Assembly: GCF_029882185.1 (NCBI RefSeq)
Contig: NZ_JAOULD010000009.1
Location: 1-47,768 of the forward strand
DNA from: Candidatus Nitrosopumilus sp.
Lineage (GTDB): Archaea; Thermoproteota; Nitrososphaeria; Nitrososphaerales; Nitrosopumilaceae
DNA length: 47,768 nt
Reading direction: 5' to 3'
The notes beneath the pieces are model-generated. The model was not told the origin of the DNA, did no database searches, and saw only the letters and a program-made list of their open reading frames with translations. The position numbers and the translations under genes are program-made. This document shows, in pieces, positions 34,134-46,815 of this stretch (positions are counted from its first letter, which is position 1; every line of letters begins with the position of its first letter).

Positions 34134-34367
34134 TCAATTAACGCCTTTTCTTCTTACTCTTTTTTCATTTGAAAGAGGAGTGGTTTTTTCAAATTCTTCT
34201 TGTTTCCTTCTTACTTCATCTCTTTCTTTATCTGTTTGTTCACGTAAGATGACATCATCCATATCTGCAAAATTTTTACATTTTTTGCATAGCCACATAG
34301 TCTGTTTTTCTGCTTCATGGTGTTCTGGTAATCGTCGACTGTTACATTGTTTGCAAAATAATGGCAT
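34134..34367 (-). CDS. Zinc-ribbon protein (77 aa)
   Basis: The 77-residue protein starts MPLFCKQCNSRRLPEHHEAE and has a second knuckle CKKC at residue 28-31, giving a Cys4 zinc ribbon in the first 35 residues. The rest is a highly charged helix (TDKERDEVRRKQEEFEK) ending in RRKG. The layout resembles small nucleic-acid-binding ribbons. It is one of many such genes between 34 and 47 kb. Confidence 0.6.
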   Translation of the reverse strand: MPLFCKQCNSRRLPEHHEAEKQTMWLCKKCKNFADMDDVILREQTDKERDEVRRKQEEFEKTTPLSNEKRVRRKGVN

Positions 34368-34501
34368 AATGATACTGTAAGAATTGTTAACTTAAGCGTA
34401 TTGGCTCTGAATTTCTTTTTGATTTTTTCTGATTCTTTTGCTGTGATAAATTACAACATCTTTAAGTTCACTGTCTTTATAGAATCAAAAGGTTCTATAG
34501 C

Positions 34502-34609
34502 ATGGATAAAGAATGGTTAAGAGTAAAAAGCGGTAGGAGCAAAGGCTGTAAAGATTGCATTAATCATAGATGTATTCCAAGTAGTTGTACATGTGACTGC
34601 CATAAATGA
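34502..34609 (+). CDS. Cys-rich mini protein (35 aa)
   Basis: A 35-residue protein with six cysteines and two histidines in its second half (CKDC, then INHRC, SSCTCDCHK). That density suggests a metal-binding peptide such as a zinc knuckle or small metallothionein-like protein. A TTTATAGA box lies about 23 nt before the ATG, slightly closer than at other genes in the window. It is too short to classify. Confidence 0.5.
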   Translation: MDKEWLRVKSGRSKGCKDCINHRCIPSSCTCDCHK

Positions 34610-34695
34610 TTTTAAAATCAAATTGTTTATTGTAAAAAATTTGCTTTCCTTGGCATATTAGCACAAGCTAATTAGGATAATCTAATTTTCATACC

Positions 34696-34703
34696 GTTTA
34701 AAT
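34696..34703 (+). promoter_or_regulatory. TATA box of the 57-aa double-zinc gene
   Basis: GTTTAAAT, centred 26.5 nt before the ATG at 34726. Confidence 0.5.
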
Positions 34704-34725
34704 CCTATTTTATGCAAACTAATTC

Positions 34726-34899
34726 ATGAAACAAGATTCATGCAGACGCTGTGGACATGAATTAGAAGTTAATACAAAATGTAAGATTTGTAATGAGGCA
34801 AATCAATTTTTTTGTCATGAATGTGGATACCTTACTGAAGAACAGATTCACTTCAAATGTATGATGATCAACATGGACAATTCATTGCTTTCAAATTAA
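34726..34899 (+). CDS. Double zinc-knuckle protein (57 aa)
   Basis: The 57-residue protein has three Cys pairs in order (SCRRCGHE, KCKICNE, CHECGY), followed by a HFKC end, enough for two zinc sites of ribbon type. The cysteine pairs are evenly spaced at about 12-15 residues. The pattern resembles small rubredoxin-like or treble-clef domains but matches no single named family that I can identify. Promoter spacing supports the ATG. Confidence 0.6.
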   Translation: MKQDSCRRCGHELEVNTKCKICNEANQFFCHECGYLTEEQIHFKCMMINMDNSLLSN

Positions 34900-34936
34900 A
34901 ATACAGAAATAAATTATAGTTTATGGTTTATGATGT

Positions 34937-35233
34937 ATGGCAAATAAAATTACTGCAAATGTACTAAAATCACAAAAAAATGATTTTGTAATAATTGATG
35001 TCCGAGAGTCTGATGAACTTGAAAATGGAAAAATTGAGAACTCTATCCACATGCCTTTGGGATTGAGCATTAGAAATGCAAAGAAAAAACAGATTGAAGA
35101 TCTAAAGGACAAGAAAATCTGTACTTATTGTGGAACTGGTTATAGGGGAAACATTGCAGCTGATGAACTAGTAAAAGAAGGATTTAATGCAGTTACCTTG
35201 GAAGGTGGCTACCCTTCATGGAATCAATCCTAA
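34937..35233 (+). CDS. Single-domain rhodanese-like sulfurtransferase
   Basis: The 98-residue protein is a compact rhodanese domain: DFVIIDVRESDELENGKI at the first strand, the NSIHMPLG turn, the active-site loop YCGTGYRG with the catalytic Cys, and a final LEGGYPSWNQ. Such proteins move sulfur between persulfide carriers in the cytoplasm. It lies 3 nt from the convergent 116-residue gene. An AAATAAAT box is 26.5 nt upstream of the ATG. Confidence 0.9.
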   Translation: MANKITANVLKSQKNDFVIIDVRESDELENGKIENSIHMPLGLSIRNAKKKQIEDLKDKKICTYCGTGYRGNIAADELVKEGFNAVTLEGGYPSWNQS

Positions 35234-35236
35234 TTT

Positions 35237-35587
35237 TTATTCATTCCAAATTGGCTGTGTTTTTAGCCATTTAATTAAATCTCTATACAAATTACTTTTT
35301 TGCATATTTAGAACCCCAATCTCAAGATTGGTGGATGATTTTACGGTCTTTGTATAATTGTCATAAACTGCAAAAATAATTTTGTCCAAGAACATTTCAT
35401 TTTGCATCTCTTTTTTAGCCAACTCTTCTGATTCTGTCATGGCAAAACTGGCAAATAGCACTCCGTCAACCCAGTAGGCATTTGCTGCTTCTAATGATGA
35501 CATCATGCCGATTAGATCATCCAGATTAAGTTTAATCATGTCTCTAACGTATATTCTGTCATATGGTTTATGGACAAATTCTGTCAT
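35237..35587 (-). CDS. Hypothetical protein (116 aa)
   Basis: The 116-residue protein begins with a segment of alternating strand and helix (DRIYVRDMIKLNLDDLIGMM). It carries a DGVLFASFAMTESEEL middle and a C-terminal helix ending WLKTQPIW. There are no cysteines. The second segment resembles the small thaumarchaeal proteins of unknown function. It is convergent with the rhodanese gene. Confidence 0.55.
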   Translation of the reverse strand: MTEFVHKPYDRIYVRDMIKLNLDDLIGMMSSLEAANAYWVDGVLFASFAMTESEELAKKEMQNEMFLDKIIFAVYDNYTKTVKSSTNLEIGVLNMQKSNLYRDLIKWLKTQPIWNE

Positions 35588-35625
35588 GATGTTTCAATTT
35601 GATATCTACTAATAAATTATGGAAA

Positions 35626-35633
35626 TTTTATAT
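35626..35633 (+). promoter_or_regulatory. TATA box of the 76-aa gene
   Basis: TTTTATAT, centred 26.5 nt before the GTG at 35656. Confidence 0.55.
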
Positions 35634-35655
35634 CTGGTTTTTATGAAATTGCATT

Positions 35656-35886
35656 GTGAGTGAAAAATCTGAAGAATTATCCGAACATGATATGTTTGTA
35701 ACTGAATTCCCAAAAAAAGGATTTGGGCTAGTTGATTATCTTCAAGGCAGGGTTCATTTTTCTTTAATGGATCAAATGAAACTGATGCACAAATCTGGAA
35801 TGTCTCAAACTCAAATCAAAGAAACAATACTTGCAAGTGTATCTGAGATACTAGATAACTTTGAACCTGAATCAAAAAGTCCTTGA
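35656..35886 (+). CDS. Hypothetical protein (76 aa)
   Basis: A GTG-started protein of 76 residues with an acidic N-terminus and a C-terminal helix pair (LMDQMKLMHKSGMSQTQIKE, then a SVSEILDNF helix). The middle HKSGMSQTQIKETI looks like a helix-turn-helix but is short. No family is recognised. The promoter spacing makes the gene likely to be real. Confidence 0.55.
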   Translation: MSEKSEELSEHDMFVTEFPKKGFGLVDYLQGRVHFSLMDQMKLMHKSGMSQTQIKETILASVSEILDNFEPESKSP

Positions 35887-36077
35887 TTCCATTTTTAAAG
35901 ATTCTACCATGATTATCTTGTGACATTGACAATGACAATTAGCATGTGGCATATCCTTATACATTCTGTATTTGCATTCTTTCGTATGTTCTAACATTGT
36001 CAATTTGAGTAATCTTCAATATTTTCTTTTGAATTTAAAAATTTATTAATGAATTTTTTGTCGCATAAGGCCTGTAA

Positions 36078-36233
36078 TTACGATGCTGATTTACATTCAA
36101 AATATTCTACGATTGCAGTATTGAGATCTTCAAGTATCTGCTGATCTGTAAAACCTGATTCTTCAAGTAGTTTCCAAGATTTTTCTATCTGTTCTTTAAG
36201 AACATACAGAGTTCTTTTGTCATCGCAGTGCAT
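36078..36233 (-). CDS. Small helical protein (51 aa)
   Basis: A 51-residue frame from ATG 36233 to TAA 36078-36080. It has two cysteines (MHCDDK at the start, FECKSA at the end) and a helical body (YVLKEQIEKSWKLLEESGF, then QQILEDLNTAIVEYF). The end-to-end cysteines could pair as a disulfide or metal site. It lies just beyond the 3' end of the membrane-protein gene. Confidence 0.45.
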   Translation of the reverse strand: MHCDDKRTLYVLKEQIEKSWKLLEESGFTDQQILEDLNTAIVEYFECKSAS

Positions 36234-36271
36234 GTTTATCTAATTTGAAAATAGAATTTAATCTTTGAATT

Positions 36272-37318
36272 CTATATTGTTGACTCAGCAGGAATGGAAA
36301 TCTTCTTTTTTGCAATTTTTACTGCTATTATGCCTGTAATTGCACTTGGTATACTCAACACTGCAAACCATATTGCCAAAGTTTCTGAAAATTCTGTAAG
36401 CAATGAGTATCCTGAGACTTCGCTGAATACATAAAATTGAATAAAAGACATTCCTACAAGAGGCATACTGTTTACAATAAATACTGCTCCTACTATTCCT
36501 CCTGCAATTTCTTCCTTGAATTTGTTGATTCTGATTTTATTATTCATTATTGCATCTCCGATAATCGCAGTAATCATAGGTACTACAAACCACGATATGA
36601 ATCCCCAAAGATCTTCATTTGGTATCACATTTGCTGTAATGTTCATGATGATTAATCCTGCAACTGCCATACTTGCCCACCCAAACCCTTTCATTGATTT
36701 TACTGCTCCCCAAAAAATCAAAGTGCAAAAAAATGGTATTGTTATACCCAGAATAATTACTCCGGCGTATGGATCAGGATTTAGATTGATTGTTTCTCCA
36801 TTGGAAATTGGTAAACCAAATTGAAATGCAAACGCAATCACAATAAACCATAATGCCGAAAATCCTACAGTCAATGATGGTTTTACTGCTTTGAAATTGT
36901 GTGGAGTCAACCTTGTCAATCCTACAATTATGCCGACTGACTGAATCAAAATACCTGTAATTAGTGTGAGATGTGTTGGACTAAGTAATCCATCCGTTCC
37001 AAATAGTTCGTGCCATAAATAATCTGAAGGCCCTGCAACAATTTGGATCATACTTCCAATGATGATTAATTTTAAACCCAACGCAAATGATTTATGGCGA
37101 ATTTCTTTGTCCTTGCCAATAATTCCCAATGCTATGATTGCTGCAATCAATGATATTCCAACTCCTGAATACAGTACACCATGTGGAGGCGTAAAAAATG
37201 ACTCAGGGGCTCCTATCGCATGACTAGTGATGTCCCAACTTCCGCCCCAAATCTCTAAAACACTACCAAATAATGATACGATTAAAACGATTAAAACAAT
37301 CTTTGACGTTAATTTCAT
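36272..37318 (-). CDS. Polytopic membrane protein with conserved His motifs
   Basis: The protein has about nine or ten hydrophobic spans and no N-terminal soluble domain. Four membrane-flanking His motifs stand out: WDITSHAIG, FTPPHGVLY, YLWHELFG and SPTHLTL. A similar W-D-x-x-H and TPPH pattern occurs in uncharacterised bacterial and archaeal membrane proteins, so a metal- or heme-binding role is possible, but none is shown. ATG 37318 is preferred over 37330: an ATTCATAA box lies 26.5 nt before it. Confidence 0.7.
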   Translation of the reverse strand: MKLTSKIVLIVLIVSLFGSVLEIWGGSWDITSHAIGAPESFFTPPHGVLYSGVGISLIAAIIALGIIGKDKEIRHKSFALGLKLIIIGSMIQIVAGPSDYLWHELFGTDGLLSPTHLTLITGILIQSVGIIVGLTRLTPHNFKAVKPSLTVGFSALWFIVIAFAFQFGLPISNGETINLNPDPYAGVIILGITIPFFCTLIFWGAVKSMKGFGWASMAVAGLIIMNITANVIPNEDLWGFISWFVVPMITAIIGDAIMNNKIRINKFKEEIAGGIVGAVFIVNSMPLVGMSFIQFYVFSEVSGYSLLTEFSETLAIWFAVLSIPSAITGIIAVKIAKKKISIPAESTI

Positions 37319-37699
37319 ACAGCAAGACAAAAAAATTACTTTATGAATATTGTGAATTAAAAATTAAATCTTTGGAAATTCCTAAATCTGGTCACTGATG
37401 GTTTTAGATTTCTCTATTTTATACCAATGATTTGGATTGCAAATTGAATTAAAATTAGTTATTTTATTCATCTGAAACAAGCCATGAGAGGCCAATTGCT
37501 TCTCACCAGTTTAATTGATTGTTATTATCTTCATGTTTTCTTTTGGCAAAATTTCTATTTAATAACAATGAATGATTTATCAGTACGATTTCTTAGTACA
37601 AATTAGTAGTGATTCTTTATATTGAATTTGAATTATGATAGTTACCCGACCATACCTGGTGACGATTCAAATCCTAGATTCATTTTGAATCTCACCTTT
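37319..37699. other. Gene-free A/T-rich interval with an inverted repeat
   Basis: No protein frame longer than about 20 codons looks real here. GATTCAAA (37664-37671) and TTTGAATC (37684-37691) form an 8-bp inverted repeat beside the 3' end of the minus-strand gene at 37700, perhaps a terminator-type structure. I looked for a tRNA here because of a GATTCAAATCC string and found no acceptor or anticodon stem. Confidence 0.35.
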
Positions 37700-38257
37700 T
37701 TAATTTTGAGAATTTACGGTTTTTTCGTAATAGTATTCTTGTTTCTTCAAATCTTTCTCAGAAATAATTCTGCATTTTCGAATTGGGACTAACCGTGAAA
37801 TTTGTTCGTATGTATTCATATCCCTTACATCTGCAGCATATGCAATTTGCAACAGTGGTGATTTTTCTTCAATCATTGGTTTTGCTTGCTCATATCCTCC
37901 ACTTTGCCTCATTCCTGTTCTAAATAATCCTAAATGGCTATTGTTTTTTGAAATTAATGGATCTTGATATACGCAAATTGCAAACTCGTCATTTTCTTTC
38001 TCAATAATTGTCAACCTGGTAAATTTATCACTCCATTCCTCGATTTCTTTAGCAATAGAAATTGCCTCTTTTTTATCCTCAAATACAGTGGATATGACTA
38101 ACCTGTCTTTTTCATATGCCCATGATATTCCGTAGAAATTTTTTTTCCAATCAATATCTAATGACATACTTCTTATCAAAAAATTATCAAAATAATGCTT
38201 TCTAATTAATTTCCTATTTTGGTCTGATATTATGATAGAATCTTCGCACAACATCAA
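37700..38257 (-). CDS. Hypothetical protein (185 aa)
   Basis: I do not recognise this 185-residue protein. It is mixed alpha/beta with strong strands (RLVISTVFEDKKEA and DEFAICVYQDPLI). A C-terminal segment containing LVPIRKCRIISEKDLKKQ ends in a charged tail. It has two cysteines and no membrane span. The start could be either of the first two Met codons. Confidence 0.6.
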   Translation of the reverse strand: MMLCEDSIIISDQNRKLIRKHYFDNFLIRSMSLDIDWKKNFYGISWAYEKDRLVISTVFEDKKEAISIAKEIEEWSDKFTRLTIIEKENDEFAICVYQDPLISKNNSHLGLFRTGMRQSGGYEQAKPMIEEKSPLLQIAYAADVRDMNTYEQISRLVPIRKCRIISEKDLKKQEYYYEKTVNSQN

Positions 38258-38320
38258 AATCTATATTGACTATGATTCTAACAGAAATCTCTGACACTTC
38301 TTTTGTGATTAAAAAATAAT

Positions 38321-38455
38321 CTATGGTACATTAATGGGCATCCTTTCACAATTACACTCATCTCTTTTTCCACAGTATGGACAATTGCAATCACAATATA
38401 GCAATGCCTGATTACACGAGTCACATTTTGTGTATTCTGCAAAATCTTCTCTCAT
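38321..38455 (-). CDS. Eight-cysteine mini protein (44 aa)
   Basis: The 44-residue protein contains eight cysteines: a CDSC pair, four in YCDCNCPYCGK, and two in DECNCE. Two zinc sites, or one larger cluster, are possible. An ACTTATCA element is 26-27 nt before the ATG. It ends with MPINVP. No named family fits; the density is the feature that makes it worth noting. Confidence 0.55.
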   Translation of the reverse strand: MREDFAEYTKCDSCNQALLYCDCNCPYCGKRDECNCERMPINVP

Positions 38456-38649
38456 GTTGTATATTTGTAAAAATCATTGATAAGTGTCCTTTTGAAAAAT
38501 CTGAATATTAATTATCTTTTTTCTTTCAAATTAAACAAATGTTTGAAGAATATCTGATTCTTTTTTTATATCTCAAGCCTGTATGATTATTGACGCCTTC
38601 GATTAGTGGTCTCGGCATGCTATAAATGACTGCTATTCCAAGACGTTGA

Positions 38650-38796
38650 TTAATGTTTCTTCAATAGTGCGTCTTGAGGAGATTTATCTTTATTTGCCTC
38701 CCAATGCCAATTATGATGTTTTTTCCAATGGGATTCTAATTCTTCAGTTGTAGGTTCTTTTCCTAAAGGAGTACCACATAATTTACACTGAATCAT
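38650..38796 (-). CDS. Small C2H2-like zinc-finger protein (48 aa)
   Basis: A 48-residue protein with an N-terminal CKLC knuckle, a 20-residue spacer and histidines in SHWKKHHNWHWE. Cys2 plus two of these His residues can make a C2H2 finger. A charged tail (NKDKSPQDALLKKH) follows. A possible 29-codon upstream frame (38783-38872, MNDDNLPVQCHP start) overlaps its first codons by 14 nt and is less certain. Confidence 0.5.
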   Translation of the reverse strand: MIQCKLCGTPLGKEPTTEELESHWKKHHNWHWEANKDKSPQDALLKKH

Positions 38797-38897
38797 TTTT
38801 TACCTCTTTATGTTTTTTCTTTTTTGATTTTAAAATTGGATGACATTGTACAGGTAAATTATCATCATTCATAATTCAATTATAAATTAAATTTAAA

Positions 38898-39251
38898 TTA
38901 AGAGTTTGCTTTTTGTGCTGGCTTTTTTTTAGAATGTTTTTTCGTTTCTCTTGATTTGACTCTTTTTCTTTTTCTTTCTAAATCTAAAATTGAATATGTC
39001 TTTCCAGTTTCACAAAGTTTCATTTCTCCAGAATATTCGTCATGAATTGAATCAAATAATCCACTTGAAAGTAATTCTCCCACAATACCCCATGCCATGT
39101 CTTCAGAAATTTCAAATTTGTATGATATGGTTGAAACTTTTGTAAAATAACCATTTTTAGAATTTCTTAAAACAAATTGCTCGACTTTTTGCTCTGTAGT
39201 CAAACTGGGTTCTCTTTTTTTGAAATTTCTGTATGGTTTTCTTTCTGACAT
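38898..39251 (-). CDS. Hypothetical protein with wHTH-like middle (117 aa)
   Basis: The 117-residue protein has a basic N-terminus (KPYRNFKKRE), a central winged-helix-like segment (KVEQFVLRNSKNGYFTKVS, then KFEISEDMAWGIVGELLSS) and a strongly basic tail (RKRKRVKSRETKKHSKKK). It is probably a nucleic-acid-binding protein. It lies close to the 195-residue gene (20 nt) on the same strand and may share its transcript. Confidence 0.55.
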   Translation of the reverse strand: MSERKPYRNFKKREPSLTTEQKVEQFVLRNSKNGYFTKVSTISYKFEISEDMAWGIVGELLSSGLFDSIHDEYSGEMKLCETGKTYSILDLERKRKRVKSRETKKHSKKKPAQKANS

Positions 39252-39271
39252 TATTATCCTATTTTCTTGTT

Positions 39272-39859
39272 TTATTCCTTAGCATTAAGTGTGTCCGGAT
39301 CATTGTTACCTGGCATATATTTGTCTCCTAACTTGTTTTTCATTTCCTCATCAAACTCTTCTTGTAATCTGGTGAGATAGATTTCTGCTTCTGTTTCATC
39401 TTCTGGAATTCCTGTGTCTATATCGAAATTAAATCCTGTTGCCAAATGATAAAATTCTTCAAAAAATTCCTTACAGTCTATCACATCTGCTTTTTCATCA
39501 ATTATTGTTACTAAGCAATCATTTTCCATTCTAAAATTAAGGCAAATTTCTTCTTCTATCATTACATCTACTATGACTGACATAAGATACGCAACGAATT
39601 TTTTCTCTAATTTTCCCTTGCCTTTATTTGCAATCCATAACTCTTTTCCCTCTAAAAAATTCTCAAATGTTCTAACGATCATGCCTCGAATTTCTGAATC
39701 CTGATATGATAATTTAGATTTCCATGATTCAAATTTTCCTGGTTCTGCATATGCTGCATCAAATGTAAGTTCTTCATTAATTTGTTCAAATTCCCAAATT
39801 TCCTTATTGGTCCACATTGGTGAGAATTCTGCAATTAGATTTCTTGTAGTCAGATTCAA
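39272..39859 (-). CDS. Hypothetical protein (195 aa)
   Basis: An acidic 195-residue protein, largely helical, with EIWEFEQINEELTFDAAYAE near the front and a FFEEFYHLATGF segment before an acidic tail (EEFDEEMKNKLGDKY). No family is recognised. An AATAAACT element sits 26-27 nt before the ATG. It heads a probable two-gene unit with the basic winged-helix-like protein; the opposite charges would allow them to pair, which is inference. Confidence 0.6.
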   Translation of the reverse strand: MNLTTRNLIAEFSPMWTNKEIWEFEQINEELTFDAAYAEPGKFESWKSKLSYQDSEIRGMIVRTFENFLEGKELWIANKGKGKLEKKFVAYLMSVIVDVMIEEEICLNFRMENDCLVTIIDEKADVIDCKEFFEEFYHLATGFNFDIDTGIPEDETEAEIYLTRLQEEFDEEMKNKLGDKYMPGNNDPDTLNAKE

Positions 39860-39899
39860 TAAAATTCCTATTCTTCTCTATAGTTTATTCTTATCTTGA

Positions 39900-40106
39900 T
39901 CAGTTACTTATTCCTGATTTCAGAAATTCAAGTGTGCATTCTGCTAATTCTTTACTTGAATGTTTTTTTATGTCATGTTTACAGTTTGGACAAATACCTG
40001 TTTCTTCTTCAGATAATCCTCCTCCTACTTGTTTCATACAACATTCCATTAATTCATCTGTTGAATGAGATTCCATTGCAAGCTTACATGTGGGACATTC
40101 AGTCAA
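39900..40106 (-). CDS. Tandem zinc-knuckle protein with internal duplication (68 aa)
   Basis: The chain contains the same module twice: ECPTCKLAMESHSTDELMEC and ICPNCKHDIKKHSSKELAEC, about 37 residues apart. Each has CPxCK, then H-S, then E-L-x-E-C, a Cys3-His set that could bind one zinc. The linker is Gly-rich (GGGLSEEETG). This is an internal duplication with clear residue-level match, so it is very likely a real protein. Its partner or target is unknown. Confidence 0.65.
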   Translation of the reverse strand: MTECPTCKLAMESHSTDELMECCMKQVGGGLSEEETGICPNCKHDIKKHSSKELAECTLEFLKSGISN

Positions 40107-40171
40107 ATTGATATAGTTTAATGAAAATTACATTATTAATAAATTATATTTAATTCAAGATTAACTCTTGT

Positions 40172-40426
40172 GTGAATAATCAAGAAAAATTTCAAAATAA
40201 ATTACTTTGTACTTGTAATGAAAATGTCTATTTTGAGATTATTGGCGATATAGAATGTGATTGGGGAAACCATGTTGTTATTCAATGTCCTAAATGTGAA
40301 GAATTGTTTTCAGTGGATTGTGAATGTCCTGCGTTTCAAAACATTTCAAATCTGTTAAAAAATAACCCTTCTTTGTTTTCTAATTCAGAAAAATTAGATT
40401 ATATGAAAAATTCTCATCCAAAATAA
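40172..40426 (+). CDS. Small Cys-rich protein (84 aa)
   Basis: This GTG-started 84-residue protein has LLCTCNE, then a CDWGNH segment, CPKCEEL and DCECP, seven cysteines in all. The middle can form a zinc ribbon. An AATTATAT box is centred 26.5 nt before the GTG. The C-terminal third is polar and helical. It is divergent from the duplicated zinc-knuckle gene, with their TATA elements in the 65-nt gap. Confidence 0.6.
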   Translation: MNNQEKFQNKLLCTCNENVYFEIIGDIECDWGNHVVIQCPKCEELFSVDCECPAFQNISNLLKNNPSLFSNSEKLDYMKNSHPK

Positions 40427-40533
40427 AAGTTACTCATGAATAAAATCAGCAATTAATATTGAACAATAAAATCCTCTGATTAAAAAATTAATCAGATTTT
40501 AAATTGTATTGTCTATAATTTTGAAATCTTTTC

Positions 40534-40611
40534 TTAACTGAATAATAAAACCAATCCTATGACTAATGCAGTTACTGAAATTCCCATCCATATGTAAAAT
40601 TTTGTCATCAT
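40534..40611 (-). CDS. Single-span membrane peptide (25 aa)
   Basis: A 25-residue frame (MMTKFYIWMGISVTALVIGL then VLLFS) is a bare transmembrane helix with a short positive front. Such peptides are often missed. The length leaves the possibility of chance, but the composition is strongly membrane-like in a gap without other genes. Confidence 0.35.
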   Translation of the reverse strand: MMTKFYIWMGISVTALVIGLVLLFS

Positions 40612-40682
40612 CAATATCCTTTATTTTTATCGAAATTAATAGTTTGGAATTAAGAAAGCAAGCAAGTTTTCTATCCATTTTC

Positions 40683-40736
40683 ATCGACCCTTTGGGGGTT
40701 ACGTGTGGATACCAAACCCGCAAACACCTTGCTTTC
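40683..40736. repeat. GC-rich patch with hairpin potential
   Basis: This short stretch is far richer in G and C than its surroundings. GGGTT and AACCC enclose TGG-ATA-CCA, so a nested hairpin can form. The minus strand also allows an 18-codon frame (MFAGLVSTRNPQRVDENG). It may be a structured RNA element or a fragment of an older gene. Confidence 0.3.
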
Positions 40737-40955
40737 GTAATTCTTACTGCTTGATGTCTTCAAAAATTCTTAAAATAAAACATGTCTTGAATTCTTATCA
40801 AAAAGGGTTGAAAAAATGATCCATTTCCAATTCTTGATATGTCCGAACCTGTGATTTTATAAATGTCAGGGTTGCCTGAATCTGTATGCCTAATACTGCA
40901 AACTAATCTCAAATCACACACGAATAATTTTATTCTCAATGAGCTAGACTTTGGC

Positions 40956-41489
40956 ATGGCTGATAACACATTGCAATGGTCTCCTGATTTTGCTTTAAAA
41001 TGGTCTGACTTTCAAGCCGAATCCAATCCTGCAGTTTTTGAGGATTCTCACAGTGTCATAAAATACAGATTTACTTGGACTGTAAATTCTGAAAAAATTG
41101 ATGATCAGATCGTTTTTCTTATTGAGGATATTCGCCTTTTTGCCGAGTTTAATCCCTTGCTCTCTTGGGTGAGATTATCTGCAGCCACTGATTTGTTACT
41201 ACATCACGAACAAGGAAATTTTGACCTTGCTGAATTGATTAAAAATGAAAACATGTTCAAATTACAAGAACAATTCAACGGAAAATATTTTCCGACTAGA
41301 GGCAAAAATGAAGAACAAAGAAGACAGTTTGCAAAAGAAGATTCTGGAAAAATGATTAATGCAGAGGTAGAAAAATTACAACAATTATACGATGAAAAAT
41401 CTTTACAATATCACAAGGAAACAAATTATGGTGTTGATACTAAACGCCAATTTGAGTATGATTTGACGTTTAAACAATTAAGACAATAA
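40956..41489 (+). CDS. DUF922-like protein with altered metal motif
   Basis: The 177-residue protein follows the DUF922 layout (predicted Zn-dependent protease): LKWSDFQAES at the start, an aromatic SWVRLSAATDLLLHHEQGNFDLAEL block, then a long helix and a final TNYGVDTKRQFEYD. In the family the metal motif is HEQGH and the last element is usually T-x-H-G. Here the second His is Asn and the later His is Tyr, so protease activity is doubtful. No signal peptide is seen. ATG 40956 is chosen; the AATTTTAT box is 26.5 nt upstream. A broken copy follows at 41538. Confidence 0.65.
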   Translation: MADNTLQWSPDFALKWSDFQAESNPAVFEDSHSVIKYRFTWTVNSEKIDDQIVFLIEDIRLFAEFNPLLSWVRLSAATDLLLHHEQGNFDLAELIKNENMFKLQEQFNGKYFPTRGKNEEQRRQFAKEDSGKMINAEVEKLQQLYDEKSLQYHKETNYGVDTKRQFEYDLTFKQLRQ

Positions 41490-41537
41490 TTTGCATTGCC
41501 GTCTGATTTCTTATATGCTTACCTTATAATTTTAGTT

Positions 41538-41679
41538 ATGGAAACTGCAAAAATTCCAAAATTCAAGTGGTCTGAACTGTCTGATCTTAATTCTGGGCAC
41601 ACTCCAAATGAATGGGGGATGAAAAAAAGAAAATCAAATCAATTCAAATGTGTCATATACTGTATCTTGGGATGATTAA
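41538..41679 (+). pseudogene. Frameshifted, truncated DUF922-like copy
   Basis: The first frame reads KFKWSELSDLNSGHTPNEWG and stops at 41673-41675 as a 45-residue ORF. Shifting by one base inside the A7 run near 41620 continues instead as KKENQINSN and VSYTVSWDD up to TAA 41677-41679. The two parts match the front of the DUF922-like gene just upstream (KWSDF, then KYRFTWTV). It is therefore a tandem copy that has lost its catalytic half. Confidence 0.45.
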
Positions 41680-41942
41680 GTTCTATTTTCAATTATTTTA
41701 TTTTCAGGAATTGAATTAATGTAATTTACTAAACTTCTATAATATTTTAAATGAAATTCCAAATCTCTGATTTCTGTTTGTTTTAATTCTTCAAGTTCTG
41801 GACCGAAATCTGTATTGTTTGTTTGTATGTGGTTTAGTGTAGTTTCATTAACCTCAATCATGTGAAAAAGACTATGTAATACTTCTCCTTTGGTAAGTGT
41901 TCTGTCGCATGATTTTTGTAATATTTTTTCAACCCAATCCAT
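41676..41942 (-). CDS. Hypothetical helical protein (88 aa)
   Basis: A mostly helical 88-residue protein: WVEKILQKSCDRTLTKGEVL, then HSLFHMIEVNETTLNHI and an EFHLKYYRSLVNYINSI helix. One cysteine only. It looks like a four-helix bundle but no family is recognised. Its 3' end overlaps the decayed DUF922 copy. Confidence 0.5.
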   Translation of the reverse strand: MDWVEKILQKSCDRTLTKGEVLHSLFHMIEVNETTLNHIQTNNTDFGPELEELKQTEIRDLEFHLKYYRSLVNYINSIPENKIIENRT

Positions 41943-42029
41943 ACTTCATGCTAAAATAATTCTTATATCCACTCCAGAATTGGAAAAAGTCTTACCTTTA
42001 CTCTATTTTTTTTGTCTATTCTAAAACGT

Positions 42030-42161
42030 TTATTTTTTTTGAGCCTGTTTTTTCCTATCCATTACTTCCTTGTTTCGTTCGATATCTGAATGCACTTCGA
42101 CATGTTCGTATAGTTCTTCTTTTGATTGAAATAATTGTTCACAGTAATAACATTGATGCAT
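42030..42161 (-). CDS. Classical C2H2 zinc-finger protein (43 aa)
   Basis: This 43-residue protein has the exact C-x2-C-x12-H-x3-H spacing of the classical zinc finger (CYYCEQLFQSKEELYEHVEV then H), including the hydrophobic Phe and Leu at the expected core positions. A charged tail of 19 residues follows. C2H2 fingers of this form are usual in eukaryotes and less common in archaea. It is not fused to anything and could bind nucleic acid or a protein. Confidence 0.7.
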   Translation of the reverse strand: MHQCYYCEQLFQSKEELYEHVEVHSDIERNKEVMDRKKQAQKK

Positions 42162-42287
42162 TGCTGTAATACGGATATCTAAGATAAATTGCTTTACTTG
42201 AAGAATTCAAAACTCATTCCTAGATTACTCTTCTAAATTTAATATCTAAGAATTTTGAAAATAATATGGTTGATAATCTAAAGTAGA

Positions 42288-42527
42288 CTATCTACCATTT
42301 TCTGCTTTAACTTTTGCTGCAAGATCTCCGAAAGGATCCTCGTGCCATTGCTCTTTGTTCAATTTGACCATTCCTAATTCTGATTCAAAGACCCCTTGTT
42401 CTGCAGCTGGTGCCCGTACTGCATCATCTCGAAGATAATTCTCTTGGTTATCGTGTGCATAAACCATTATTCCTGCTAATGCAGCTACTCCGATTGCAAT
42501 ACCGGCATATATTATTGCGTTTGACAT
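42288..42527 (-). CDS. Small N-anchored membrane protein (79 aa)
   Basis: Residues 4-24 are a transmembrane helix (AIIYAGIAIGVAALAGIMVYA). The remaining 55 are soluble and acidic, with ENYLRDDAVRAPAAE and a C-terminal DLAAKVKAENGR. There are no cysteines. It may be an accessory subunit of a membrane complex, but nothing shows which. A GATTAATA element is 26-27 nt before the ATG. Confidence 0.6.
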   Translation of the reverse strand: MSNAIIYAGIAIGVAALAGIMVYAHDNQENYLRDDAVRAPAAEQGVFESELGMVKLNKEQWHEDPFGDLAAKVKAENGR

Positions 42528-42589
42528 GAAAATCCATGGTGATTTTTTATATTAATCAAGTAAGACTACATTGCAATGCAGTGTAATTC

Positions 42590-42907
42590 TTAGTGTGTCT
42601 CAATTTTGATCTCTGAGTTACATCTGGGAATCTCTCCAGTCTCTTTCTTGAATTCTTCAATCAATCTTAATTGCACCTCTTTTGGATTTTCATCAAATAT
42701 TCTCTGGTACAGTGAAGTTTTTTGCATACATTCACTTCCATCAAATTCCGTATTCACATAATTTGCAAATGTTTCTTCTAGATTGTCTGTATATCCAATG
42801 TATATTGGATCTTTTTTTCTATTATACAGAACATATACTCCTGGACTTGGTTTAACATATTGTGCACTATCTGTCCATACTCGCATTTTGTCATCTAATA
42901 ATTCCAT
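42590..42907 (-). CDS. GIY-YIG domain protein
   Basis: The 105-residue protein carries the GIY-YIG core as PGVYVLYNRKKDPIYIGYT, followed by helices (NLEETFANYV) and a CNSE-containing tail. Family members cleave DNA or RNA, but the Arg and Glu of full nucleases are not obvious here, so it may only bind. It is a single-domain form. A GTTTAATA box sits 26.5 nt before the ATG at 42907. Confidence 0.7.
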   Translation of the reverse strand: MELLDDKMRVWTDSAQYVKPSPGVYVLYNRKKDPIYIGYTDNLEETFANYVNTEFDGSECMQKTSLYQRIFDENPKEVQLRLIEEFKKETGEIPRCNSEIKIETH

Positions 42908-43060
42908 ATCTTATCTTGTTGATACTAGATATTAAACAAGTTTCTCTTTTTGATATCAAGTACCATCAATCCTTATATTGATAATATAATGACAAGTTCA
43001 AAAATGAATTCAATGAGACGGGAATAGACAAGCTTAAGTTAACTCAGAATTTAGAGAAAC

Positions 43061-43219
43061 ATGATTCCCAAAGGAGGCATACCTGGAATATGTGAAGATT
43101 GCAGGGAACACATAACATATTCTAAAAAGTCCATGCAAAGTCATTCAGAATTATTGAAAAAACATCGATGTCCAAAGTGTGGACATTTTGCATTAAAAAC
43201 ACTGAGCACCGATTTGTGA
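43061..43219 (+). CDS. Small zinc-finger protein (52 aa)
   Basis: The 52-residue protein has CEDCREHI, a His-containing helix (MQSHSELLKKHR), and CPKCGHF. The two Cys pairs form a likely zinc site. Length and spacing differ from the other small ribbon genes in this region, so these are not simple copies of one another. Confidence 0.55.
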   Translation: MIPKGGIPGICEDCREHITYSKKSMQSHSELLKKHRCPKCGHFALKTLSTDL

Positions 43220-43262
43220 TTATCATGTGATTTCTTAACAATTTTGAAAATTCGTGTCAAAG

Positions 43263-43294
43263 GAGAGAATGACGTCTCGACGCTCTTTTCTCTC
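43263..43294. repeat. Short inverted repeat upstream of the 43388 gene
   Basis: GAGAGAA (43263-43269) and TTCTCTC (43288-43294) flank an 18-nt loop containing GACGTC. It lies about 65 nt before the TATA box at 43358. It could be a hairpin or operator, or chance. Confidence 0.3.
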
Positions 43295-43357
43295 ACTTAC
43301 ACTAATCTAGTATAACGAAATTTGTATTTAAGATCATGTGTGTTCTAAATTCTGATG

Positions 43358-43365
43358 TATAAATA
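43358..43365 (+). promoter_or_regulatory. TATA box of the 105-aa exported protein gene
   Basis: TATAAATA, centred 26.5 nt before ATG 43388; decides this start over ATG 43355, which overlaps the box. Confidence 0.7.
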
Positions 43366-43387
43366 TGGTCTAGTGAATTTCAAGATA

Positions 43388-43705
43388 ATGTCCACAATTA
43401 TGAAATCTAAATTAAAATTCCTTCTAATTCTCCCCCTACTTGCAGGGATAATTTATTTTGGAACTAGTGTATCTGATTTTGACATATTGGAAAGTATGGA
43501 TACGCAAAAATGGATGTTAGAGCAATTTGCAATAAACTATGAAGCAATGATGATTGCATGTAGTAAAGATAATCTTGATCCTGAAGAACTACAATCATGT
43601 CTTGATGCATTTGTCGAAGTAAAAGAATTCTGTGCAACTCAGAATGCGGATCAATGTGGAGATGAAAACATGGATCAATTGGAACAGAAATTGTTAGATA
43701 TTTAA
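43388..43705 (+). CDS. Exported or membrane-anchored protein with four cysteines
   Basis: The 105-residue product begins with a basic stretch and one hydrophobic segment (KSKLKFLLILPLLAGIIYFG), a signal peptide or anchor, then a helical acidic domain. Four cysteines in two pairs (MIACSKDN with ELQSCLDAF, then EFCATQNADQCGDE) suggest disulfides outside the membrane. The family is not recognised. The start follows from the promoter spacing. Confidence 0.6.
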   Translation: MSTIMKSKLKFLLILPLLAGIIYFGTSVSDFDILESMDTQKWMLEQFAINYEAMMIACSKDNLDPEELQSCLDAFVEVKEFCATQNADQCGDENMDQLEQKLLDI

Positions 43706-43743
43706 CGTCCTTATTTTTTCATGTTTTAATTCATAATGTCAAA

Positions 43744-43902
43744 TTATGGAAAACTACCATCATCTAGTAATTCTTTGTAAATTGTTTTTTCTAAACGTGT
43801 TTCTGCTGCCCCGCATTTACTGCACATCCCTGTATCTTCTGGGTTTGTTTTCTTTTTCTTTTCACATTCCACGCATTTGTGAATCCCTTTTTTGAATCCC
43901 AT
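43744..43902 (-). CDS. Small zinc-ribbon protein (52 aa)
   Basis: A 52-residue basic protein with KCVEC and CSKCG knuckles about 18 residues apart, a compact zinc ribbon, followed by a helical tail (ETRLEKTIYKELLDDG). One of the set of short Cys4 genes in this region. Confidence 0.55.
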   Translation of the reverse strand: MGFKKGIHKCVECEKKKKTNPEDTGMCSKCGAAETRLEKTIYKELLDDGSFP

Positions 43903-44022
43903 GTTGATTTTTTTAATATTGATAATAACTATATTTGGAATTTTTGATCGATGATCTTTTTTAAAGAAAACCTAGACATTGAATTGGTTACAAATACAAT
44001 GATATCACGAGAACCTTCATGC

Positions 44023-44030
44023 TTTTAATA
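44023..44030 (+). promoter_or_regulatory. TATA box of the XPD/DinG-type helicase gene
   Basis: TTTTAATA, centred 26.5 nt before CTG 44053. Together with the absence of any ATG, GTG or TTG codon in that frame before the Walker A motif, this points to a CTG start. Confidence 0.5.
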
Positions 44031-44052
44031 TTGAACATGAAGAGATGTAATC

Positions 44053-45732
44053 CTGTCTTTATTAGAAAAATTTCCAGATCAATTCACACCTAGAGATATT
44101 CAAAAAGAAATTTTATCACAAATTGAAGAAAAATTAAAGTCTGGATTCAAAAAAATCATTCTGTGTGCTCCAACAGGAGTTGGCAAATCTCTTGTAGGGG
44201 CAACTGTTTCTAATTATTTTGATAGTTCTTTTACGGTCACTGCATCAAAACACCTTCAAGATCAATACATCAAAGACATTCCGTTTTTAAAACCTGTAAA
44301 AGGAAAACAAAATTTTCCTTGTCTAAAATTAATGGCTTCAGAAAAAGTTGACAATGAAAGAAGAGCGATGAGATGGGGGTTAACTTGTGATAAGGGTGAA
44401 TGCCAGGAAAGAGTCAACAAAAATGGAAAAGAAGTCTTTGAAGTTTGCAAATTCAAGCCTACCATAAATCAGGTTGAAGAAAATACTCAGGATTCCCCTT
44501 CTTGTCATTATTATATGCAAAAGTACGATGCCCTAGTTTCAAAACACTCTCTTTGGAATTATCATGCATTTTTTACTATCATGAAATTTAACAAAAAACT
44601 CTTTGAAGAATACCTTGATAGAAAAATAACTGTATTTGATGAGGCTCACAAAATTGAAGACCAAATAATTCAGTTTGTTGGATTTGATATTTTTAGTGGT
44701 CAAATAGATGAATGTAATCTCAATTCAGAAAAATATGATTTCACTGATTTAGATTCAATGATACAGCTAACTGACGATATGGCTTTTTCTTATGCCAAAA
44801 AAATAAAAGATATCAAAGAAAGTGCTGCATTTCAAAATAATCCTGATTATGAATTGATTACAGGATTGGAGCGCAGACATGACAGATCTACCCAAGCAAA
44901 AATCGACATTATGTCTGACAAGGATAATTTTATTGTAAATAATCCTGTCAAAGATTTGAATGGTAATTTCAGAATAATTTCTGTAAAACCTATAGATGTT
45001 TCAAAGTTTGCAAATTCGTTTTTTGAAACGGAATATCAGATTTTCATGTCTGCCACTATAGACAAATCCAGTTTTTGTGAAAACATGGGATTGAGACAAG
45101 ATGATGTTGCATTTGTTGATACCCAAAAATCTCCATTTCCAATAGAAAATAGAAGCATTGAACTTCTTAACATTAGAAGATTAAGTTATGGTTCTACTGA
45201 AGAGGATGAACTTGAAGTAATTAAAACGATTGACCGAATTATGGATGAGCATTCTGATGAACGAGGATTGATTTTAACTTCATCTATCCCTCGCTGTCAA
45301 AAAATTATTAGATATCTGTCTCATAAAAACACTCAAAGAATCAGAATTTGTCACAGTAAAAACAAAGATGGGAAAACACAAGATGAGGTAATCTCAGAAC
45401 ATGCTACTGATCCTACAGGCGTTTTGCTTTCTTCTTCATTATGGGAAGGAGTTGATCTGAAAGATGATTTGTCCAGATTCCAGATCATCGCCAAGGTTCC
45501 ATATCCAAACTACACTGAAAAAAGAACAAGGGCAAAAATGGATAAATTTCCTTTGTGGTATACCTCCCAAACTCTTACAAAAATATTGCAAGGATTTGGT
45601 CGTTCGATTAGAAGTGAAGATGACTGGGCAAAAACATATGTTTTGGATACTGCAGTAAACAATGTATTTTTTAAAGGACAACAAATGATTCCAAAGGCAT
45701 ACTATGATGTTTTAGGAATGGACAATGTTTGA
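44053..45732 (+). CDS. XPD/DinG-type DNA helicase, apparent CTG start
   Basis: This superfamily 2 helicase of about 559 residues has Walker A APTGVGKSLVGATVS, the DEAH box (VFDEAHKIED), and a C-terminal SSLWEGVDLKDD and LQGFGRSIRSE. Cysteines between them (QNFPC, LTCDKGEC, EVCKF, PSCHYY) match an Fe-S cluster domain of the XPD/DinG group. The frame is open from just after TGA 44038-44040, but contains no ATG, GTG or TTG before ATG 44332, which lies after Walker A and would cut off the ATP site. Start is therefore CTG 44053, or the frame is shifted near its front. Confidence 0.8.
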   Translation: MSLLEKFPDQFTPRDIQKEILSQIEEKLKSGFKKIILCAPTGVGKSLVGATVSNYFDSSFTVTASKHLQDQYIKDIPFLKPVKGKQNFPCLKLMASEKVDNERRAMRWGLTCDKGECQERVNKNGKEVFEVCKFKPTINQVEENTQDSPSCHYYMQKYDALVSKHSLWNYHAFFTIMKFNKKLFEEYLDRKITVFDEAHKIEDQIIQFVGFDIFSGQIDECNLNSEKYDFTDLDSMIQLTDDMAFSYAKKIKDIKESAAFQNNPDYELITGLERRHDRSTQAKIDIMSDKDNFIVNNPVKDLNGNFRIISVKPIDVSKFANSFFETEYQIFMSATIDKSSFCENMGLRQDDVAFVDTQKSPFPIENRSIELLNIRRLSYGSTEEDELEVIKTIDRIMDEHSDERGLILTSSIPRCQKIIRYLSHKNTQRIRICHSKNKDGKTQDEVISEHATDPTGVLLSSSLWEGVDLKDDLSRFQIIAKVPYPNYTEKRTRAKMDKFPLWYTSQTLTKILQGFGRSIRSEDDWAKTYVLDTAVNNVFFKGQQMIPKAYYDVLGMDNV

Positions 45733-45736
45733 ACAA

Positions 45737-45934
45737 TTACTTTCTATCTGCACAAGCACATCTGACATATACCATTTTGAATTCCCCATTTGTTTTTACA
45801 TTGTGTGACATTGGTTTTCTGCATTGTTGACATTCTGTAAATCCAAAATACTCTTCTACTTTGATTAATTTGTAGTCCCAAGATTTCTTCTCTTCATTCC
45901 AAAAAACAGAATTTATTTCTGATGGGCCTTCCAT
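45737..45934 (-). CDS. Small zinc-ribbon protein (65 aa)
   Basis: The 65-residue protein has an acidic front (EEKKSWDYKLIKVEEYFGF), then CQQCRKPMSH and a final RCACADRK. Four cysteines could form one zinc site. A TAATTAAT element lies 26-27 nt before the ATG. Convergent with the helicase gene with 4 nt between them. Confidence 0.55.
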   Translation of the reverse strand: MEGPSEINSVFWNEEKKSWDYKLIKVEEYFGFTECQQCRKPMSHNVKTNGEFKMVYVRCACADRK

Positions 45935-45967
45935 GTTTTATTGAAACTATTTTCATTAATTAATTTT

Positions 45968-46180
45968 CTATGGGTTTAGATTTTTGAAATCTAGACATTT
46001 TTGATCAAACTCATTCAGGTATTTTTTTGCATTAATATGAGAGTCAATCACGTATATCTCACATGTTTCTGAATCAATTAACTGAGATGCGTTGTTGCTA
46101 TTTGTCACAACCTGTAATGCAAGGATGCTGACCAATGCGATTATTACAATAATGGCAAATTTGCTTGAGTAAATATCCAT
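45968..46180 (-). CDS. Small exported or anchored protein (70 aa)
   Basis: Residues 8-25 are hydrophobic (AIIVIIALVSILALQVV), a signal peptide or anchor. The rest is soluble, with two cysteines (ETCEIYV and QKCLDF) that could be a disulfide outside the cell. No family is recognised. Confidence 0.5.
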   Translation of the reverse strand: MDIYSSKFAIIVIIALVSILALQVVTNSNNASQLIDSETCEIYVIDSHINAKKYLNEFDQKCLDFKNLNP

Positions 46181-46321
46181 AATTATTATTCAGTGATTTT
46201 TAACTCAACTATAATCCTTGGGTAAATTCTTGATACACTTAACCTGTAGTAGGCCAAAGTATACAAAAAAGTAAACCTGTTCGCACTAAATTTTGTTTTT
46301 TAAAAAATATAAAAAATTAGA

Positions 46322-46576
46322 TTATTTTTCTAAGCATGATTTGCATAATTTTTCATTAATCATGCTATTTTTTGGAATAAATTCATTTTTACAATTTGTA
46401 CATACATTAAGTAACCTTAGTCCCTTGATTGTGCTTTGATTGTTTTTGGTATTAATTTTTAGTTCATTTGACTTTTCAATAGATTTTGAACTATCACTCA
46501 TTCCTCTAATTACATCATCTAATTTGTTGATATCTTCTACTGATAGTTGTATCTTAAACTCCTTATCTCTAGACAT
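46322..46576 (-). CDS. Small protein with C-terminal zinc ribbon (84 aa)
   Basis: The first half is polar and helical (VEDINKLDDVIRGMSDSS) and the end has CTNCKNEF and CKSCLEK, a Cys4 zinc site. The start at ATG 46576 (MSRDKEF) has a TTTAATTT element 26.5 nt upstream, while the extension to 46600 lies across it. Family unknown. Confidence 0.55.
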   Translation of the reverse strand: MSRDKEFKIQLSVEDINKLDDVIRGMSDSSKSIEKSNELKINTKNNQSTIKGLRLLNVCTNCKNEFIPKNSMINEKLCKSCLEK

Positions 46577-46686
46577 CTTATCTCTTTTCTTAACATCCAA
46601 ATTAAATTAATGTATAAAATAAATCCAATTTCATTTTAAATTCTTGTATTTTGTTTCTTATTGAAACTATACTAGTTCTTGCAGAC

Positions 46687-46815
46687 TCATATATTGCAAC
46701 GACTAGACGTGTTTTCATTTTTTGGCAGATGAATTTTTTCATGTTCTCGAACCTTATCAAAAGTATATGATGTTCCTTCCCATTGAAAACTACATTTGGC
46801 ACAATTGTATTTCAC
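46687..46815 (-). CDS. C2H2-like zinc-finger protein (42 aa), GTG start
   Basis: A 42-residue protein begins at GTG 46815 and has CAKCSFQWEGTSYTFDKVRE followed by HEKIH, a C-x2-C and H-x3-H pair separated by 16 residues. The GTG overlaps the stop of the preceding small gene (GTGA, 46812-46815), which suggests coupled translation. Confidence 0.5.
   Translation of the reverse strand: MKYNCAKCSFQWEGTSYTFDKVREHEKIHLPKNENTSSRCNI

Follow-up and report, generated by a model that had tools for sequence, protein, structure and literature searches.

Two questions are raised by the segment between 34 and 47 kb of the stretch of Nitrosopumilus DNA analyzed here (the window, 47,768 nucleotides of contig NZ_JAOULD010000009.1): (i) are the tiny cysteine-rich ORFs that crowd it real genes that have been kept together and (ii) what could such a collection of proteins do? 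The window is AT-rich (29–36% GC) and represents contig 49 of the 102 that make up a 1.66-Mb genome. The named relatives of its genes come from Nitrosopumilus and Nitrosarchaeum genomes and from metagenome bins, which marks the organism as an ammonia oxidizer of the Nitrosopumilus type. An initial annotation had listed 13 such ORFs, all of which we find where it placed them. To these we add 35872–36003 on the minus strand, which was perhaps overlooked because it begins with TTG and which is conserved at 36 of 66 homologous loci. The resulting 14 proteins are 35–92 aa long and are referred to below by their first coordinate.

We counted small Cys-rich ORFs with a loose criterion, a two-pair Cys/His rule applied to ORFs outside of long genes, and with a strict CPxCG-type rule. 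Using the loose rule, 14 are observed at 34–47 kb, whereas 200 shuffles of the long-ORF-free DNA average 1.55 and never exceed 6; for the strict rule, 6 are observed and 0.015 are found in shuffles of the same DNA. A Markov control that admits any frame gives a mean of 3.3 and a maximum of 7 in 100 replicates, against 16 observed. Thus, the random-sequence control, by which the initial annotation had proposed that its claim of a concentration be challenged, does not yield comparable counts. The rest of the genome provides a second reference. Twenty sampled stretches of the host (399 kb) contain 53 small Cys-rich ORFs, about 14 of which are expected by chance under the loose criterion, or 2.65 per 20 kb versus 14 in 13 kb at the locus. 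This corresponds to a density about eight times normal (Poisson P about 5e-9), and no 13-kb segment of three other host contigs has more than 6. Part of the excess arises because the locus has few long genes; when counts are normalized to long-ORF-free DNA the difference is smaller, with 18.9 per 10 kb at the locus versus 6.9 in the background. Samples from four further lineages within this archaeal order have 0.4 to 2.0 per 20 kb, a loose comparison because two of the four have much higher GC. The concentration is therefore real with respect to shuffled sequence, to the organism's own genome and to the samples of the four other lineages.

The second line of evidence is conservation. All 14 members have homologues in relatives, and the aligned homologues retain length, start and Cys/His positions. 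For the 12 members with matches in our set of 66 homologous loci, pN/pS is 0.14–0.39, values that are rough because synonymous changes are near saturation. Cysteine identity in these 12 is 0.97–1.00, except for 40172 (0.88); the averages for their other residues are 0.53–0.81. A further candidate, ORF 38526–38618, was rejected as a small gene (pN/pS 0.93) and served as a non-gene control. An absence of conservation in relatives, which had been named as a second way of refuting the concentration, was looked for and is not the case. Judged by these sequence comparisons, the members are real genes. Conservation is highest at the knuckle cysteines and, for the C2H2 types, at the histidines, and zinc binding is well supported by sequence on this basis; we regard all 14 proteins as presumably zinc-binding.

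Small genes of other kinds are also found here. Knuckle-free small proteins at 35656–35886, 36078–36233, 41676–41942, 42288–42527 and 45968–46180 are conserved as well (pN/pS 0.14–0.37), and the locus is therefore rich in small orphan genes generally. Another small conserved protein (42590–42907, minus strand) matches GIY-YIG weakly (E 6e-4), falling slightly short of the Pfam cut-off. A conserved non-coding hairpin element, TAGTGGTC...GACCACTA, occupies 38560–38650 (minus strand), with two stem mismatches in the window copy. It occurs in 7 of the 10 genus genomes that were searched, as a single copy in each and as two in one 9%-contaminated assembly, and a search for an Rfam match found none. 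An XPD-type helicase gene lies at about 44030–45732 (plus strand). Its reading frame extends without a stop far upstream of ATG 44332 and contains the Walker A motif, and both here and in a relative (L009) there is no ATG, GTG or TTG accepted by the ORF finder before Walker A; this helicase may use a rare start codon.

Two layers can be distinguished among the 14 families. Eight (34726 usually among them) form a core that is essentially single-copy and is present at the same locus in many relatives. At the center of this core is 39900 (39900–40106, minus strand), a 68-aa tandem module, 2 × (CPxCK..H..LxEC), found at 66 loci with pN/pS 0.18. It is divergent from 40172 (40172–40426, plus strand; 84 aa, CxC..C..CxxC..C; 45 of 66 loci), with a 65-bp gap between the two. 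The 48-aa C2H2-type finger 38650 (38650–38796, minus strand; CKLCG...HWKKHHxWHW; 58 of 66 loci, pN/pS 0.15) is the syntenic partner, in several genera, of 42030 (42030–42161, minus strand; 52 of 66 loci, pN/pS 0.15), a 43-aa protein with one finger of classical C2H2 spacing and a basic C-terminal tail. The remaining core members are the 57-aa double-knuckle protein 34726 (34726–34899, plus strand; SCRRCG..CxxC..CHxC..C; 23 of 66 loci, Cys identity 0.97), the 43-aa NCxCxCHK protein 35872 (pN/pS 0.23, Cys 100% conserved), the 44-aa, eight-cysteine protein 38321 (38321–38455, minus strand; CxxC..CxCxCPYCGK..CxC; 18 of 66 loci, Cys 100% conserved) and the 65-aa protein 45737 (45737–45934, minus strand; CQxCRKPMSHN...KCAC; 24 of 66 loci, Cys and His 100% conserved). 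Core order is broadly but not perfectly shared, in that 45737, 35872 and 34726 switch side or orientation in some genomes. Relatives of 34726, and probably of 38321, also occur outside the locus: a 34726 paralogue is found in stretch L183, and copies related to 38321 are found in two TFB-containing stretches (L185 and L189).

The synteny comparison that the initial annotation had suggested shows the locus to be kept, in recognizable order, in the 24 relatives that have a full 20-kb locus. The homologous 20 kb contain 5–14 small Cys-rich ORFs in these genomes (mean 9.6), indicating a lasting hotspot. A two-protein query with 38650 and 42030 finds matches in 9 of the family's 22 genera, although some of these genera match one protein only; in most genomes that have both, the two lie a few kilobases apart.

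The other six families are dispersed, with homologues at many other places. They comprise the 77-aa CxxC/CxxC protein 34134 (34134–34367, minus strand), which belongs to a partly multicopy family with homologues elsewhere in many genus-mates (E to 1e-30) and two homologous-locus matches (pN/pS 0.34); the 35-aa CxxC..CxCxCHK protein 34502 (34502–34609, plus strand), with a close paralogue at G000:C80:8431; and two 52-aa zinc-ribbon-like proteins whose positions vary between genomes, 43061 (43061–43219, plus strand; CxDC...CPKCG) and 43744 (43744–43902, minus strand; CxEC...CSKCG). The last two families are multicopy. The first is that of 46322 (46322–46600, minus strand), an 84–92-aa protein with a C-terminal CTNC...CxxC, whose true start is probably ATG 46576 (84 aa) rather than TTG 46600; its paralogues lie on G000:C80, on G000:C11 and in other genomes. 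The second is that of the 42-aa C2H2-type finger 46687 (46687–46815, minus strand; CxxCxFxW...HEKxH), with about seven copies in the host and members in 6 of the 22 genera sampled. The stop counts in the dispersed-family search come mostly from linkers, because the query was concatenated with X linkers. Recent tandem duplication within the cluster was rejected, since all-against-all clustering yields 14 separate families. The earlier statement that the genes are not recent copies is thus correct inside the cluster; outside of it, paralogues of several families exist. Similar packing is seen on one 4.9-kb contig of the host and at 45–60 kb of G002:C5. Further dense clusters of tiny Cys-rich ORFs (L079, L080 and L091) occur in the host and related genomes, with recurrent families such as CNKCYNxHHDQCM and KVRMAGxxxxYEC.

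The proteins had been described as lacking a named family, and this is borne out at curated cut-offs: none of the 14 has a Pfam match and none of the 10 scanned has an NCBIfam match. Our strict rule approximates that of Tarasov (2008) as CPxCG, CxxCG or CPxC followed at a set distance by a second [CH]x2-3[CH]. It is satisfied by 34726, 38321, 38650, 39900, 43061 and 43744, and the eight members outside of it include C2H2 and CxC types. Searches of solved structures by sequence gave no credible match for 39900, 38650 or 40172. The model of 39900 shows two knuckle-plus-helix units but is weak (pLDDT 70), and a fold search of the structure library with it returned no match. For 40172 the model is confident (pLDDT 89) and mostly beta, and its top fold matches, which include zinc-ribbon proteins and CK2-beta, are all non-significant (E 0.68 or worse). 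Several members had also been credited with strong leaderless promoters. A TATA-like peak at −29 across orthologues agrees with this for 34726 and 40172, and more weakly for 42030 and 38321; orthologues of 38650, 39900 and 45737 lack a peak at this leaderless position, their best position being further upstream, and those of 35872 show none either.

The locus is thus a conserved hotspot on the chromosome of Nitrosopumilus and its relatives for single-domain microproteins that presumably bind zinc, and with moderate confidence we interpret these microproteins as small regulators. Their likeliest role, by analogy with studied archaeal small zinc-finger proteins, would be the regulation of transcription through nucleic-acid or protein contact. 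Each protein would fold round one or two zinc ions, and the folded microprotein would contact DNA, RNA or the transcription machinery, where it could tune nearby or distant genes as does Brz in Halobacterium and as HVO_2753 and HVO_0758 apparently do in Haloferax. The core itself is inherited in recognizable order with some local rearrangement, and the families that duplicate and move are found both along its edges and in other parts of the genome. Of the various types, the C2H2 and ribbon-like ones appear best suited to a regulatory role; the CxC-rich proteins may differ and might hold metal. Direct nucleic-acid binding is not favored for 39900, 40172 and 38321, which are acidic, and this suggests protein contacts for some members. 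Two functions had been proposed by the initial annotation, nucleic-acid adaptors and metal buffers. Its zinc-type sequences, with ligands as the best conserved positions, and its concentration both stand, but metal buffers fit 34502, 35872 and 38321 at most. Nucleic-acid adaptors seem the better of the two guesses, given the analogy to studied proteins and a suggestive link between paralogues and TFB genes.

This link comes from paralogues of some dispersed families and of core 34726 that recur elsewhere, several times adjoining TFB genes. On G000:C80, paralogues of 46687, 34134, 34726 and 46322 flank one TFB gene, with that of 34726 directly upstream, and similar arrangements are found in G018:C4 and G016:C168. 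Around the TFB genes of two genomes there are 5.4 small Cys-rich ORFs per 20 kb versus 2.65 in the background, which was sampled in just one of these genomes, and some of the counted ORFs are spurious. These limits, the possibility that the cassettes are orthologous (the TFB cassette loci could all descend from a single ancestral one) and the location away from TFB genes of most multicopy C2H2 copies in G063, G119, G007 and G002 make the association suggestive only. A more elaborate and rather unlikely arrangement would be one of kits, in which certain TFB paralogues are combined with members of the dispersed families in the order C2H2 protein, 34134-like, 34726-like, TFB, 46322-like. Each such TFB with its own zinc microproteins would then make up a combinatorial promoter-selection system of ammonia-oxidizing archaea, for which the hotspot would be a parts reservoir.

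Several other explanations can be considered. It is possible, if doubtful, that the proteins are small protein–protein adaptors or accessory subunits of helicases, RNA polymerase, ribosomes or enzymes, with zinc serving for folding only and no nucleic-acid binding. The acidic members, the conservation of residues beyond the knuckles and the presence nearby of the XPD-type helicase and a DEAD/MZB helicase would fit this idea, but neither a fusion nor a fixed operon partner is seen and most core genes lie on mixed strands with their own gaps. Distinctly unlikely is a set of metallothionein-like buffers or sensors for zinc or copper, in what is a copper-demanding ammonia oxidizer. Metallothioneins are about one-third cysteine with many CxC motifs. 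CxCxC(H) motifs are present in 34502, 35872 and 38321, and 34502 and 38321 reach 17–18% Cys, but the range over the 13 members tallied is 4–18%, CxC is prominent in these three, the remaining tallied members have finger-like spacing and 4–12% Cys, and no metal transporter family was recognized among the scanned neighbors.

A remnant of a virus or other mobile element carrying small zinc-finger genes might be suspected from the six families that move or duplicate. This origin is very improbable and is largely refuted by synteny, with a core inherited in shared order throughout the genus and beyond it in other genera. Neither viral contigs nor PHROGs yielded useful matches: the viral collection has no relative of 38650 and just one, partial, of the C2H2 family, and the PHROGs matches are weak and of unknown function. 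Chance ORFs of an AT-rich genome, some of which our loose criteria do admit, are refuted as an explanation by the shuffle controls together with conservation.

A hotspot of presumed small regulators would have consequences beyond this locus. Ammonia-oxidizing archaea are among the most abundant marine cells and have compact genomes. Extrapolation from the sampled stretches suggests that a genome encodes roughly 80 (strict rule) to 160 (loose rule, corrected for noise) tiny proteins of the zinc type, very few of which have a name. Fourteen co-located families that persist across genera offer a natural entry to the function of this hidden class of small proteins, and the TFB-linked copies provide a testable connection to promoter choice in these organisms.

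How do these proteins compare with known systems? Within the partial coverage of the literature searched, we found nothing on Nitrosopumilus small zinc-finger proteins and no description of a hotspot of this type. Classical C2H2 proteins (zf-C2H2, zf-C2H2_4) are resembled by 42030, whose C-x2-C-x12-H-x3-H spacing is accompanied by hydrophobic positions and is 100% (Cys) and 99% (His) identical over 52 loci, and by 38650 and 46687, which are C2H2 with a longer loop. At the Pfam level, however, 42030 is a single finger that scores 21.0 bits against zf-C2H2_4 (E 5e-4), under the cut-off of 27. The mostly beta model of 40172, with its knuckle cysteines, recalls the zinc ribbons of RPB9 and casein kinase 2 beta, but the fold matches are non-significant and a sequence relation is absent. 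HVO_2753 and HVO_0758 of Haloferax volcanii are similar in size and in their paired CxxC knuckles, although 43061 scores 15.3 bits against HVO_2753_ZBP (PF07754; cut-off 33.2) and there is no sequence match at a curated cut-off. Mutants lacking HVO_0758 or HVO_2753 have reduced levels of motility-gene transcripts and are affected in biofilm (PMC10716476), and 5 of 14 produced Haloferax proteins of the predicted small zinc-finger kind were zinc-free (PMC11241148). In the available part of the report on Halobacterium salinarum Brz, this protein is needed for bop transcription and requires its Cys and His residues, and packing at one conserved locus, as seen in the window, is not described for proteins of its type (PMC2253796). 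The closest likeness is to the archaeal CPxCG-related small zinc-finger proteins, which are likewise under 100 aa and single-domain, have two Cys/His pairs and are many per genome and mostly unnamed, although only 6 of the 14 window proteins fit the strict motif as approximated here. The locus is a variation on this archaeal small zinc-finger kind, one that is real, conserved and unusually concentrated.
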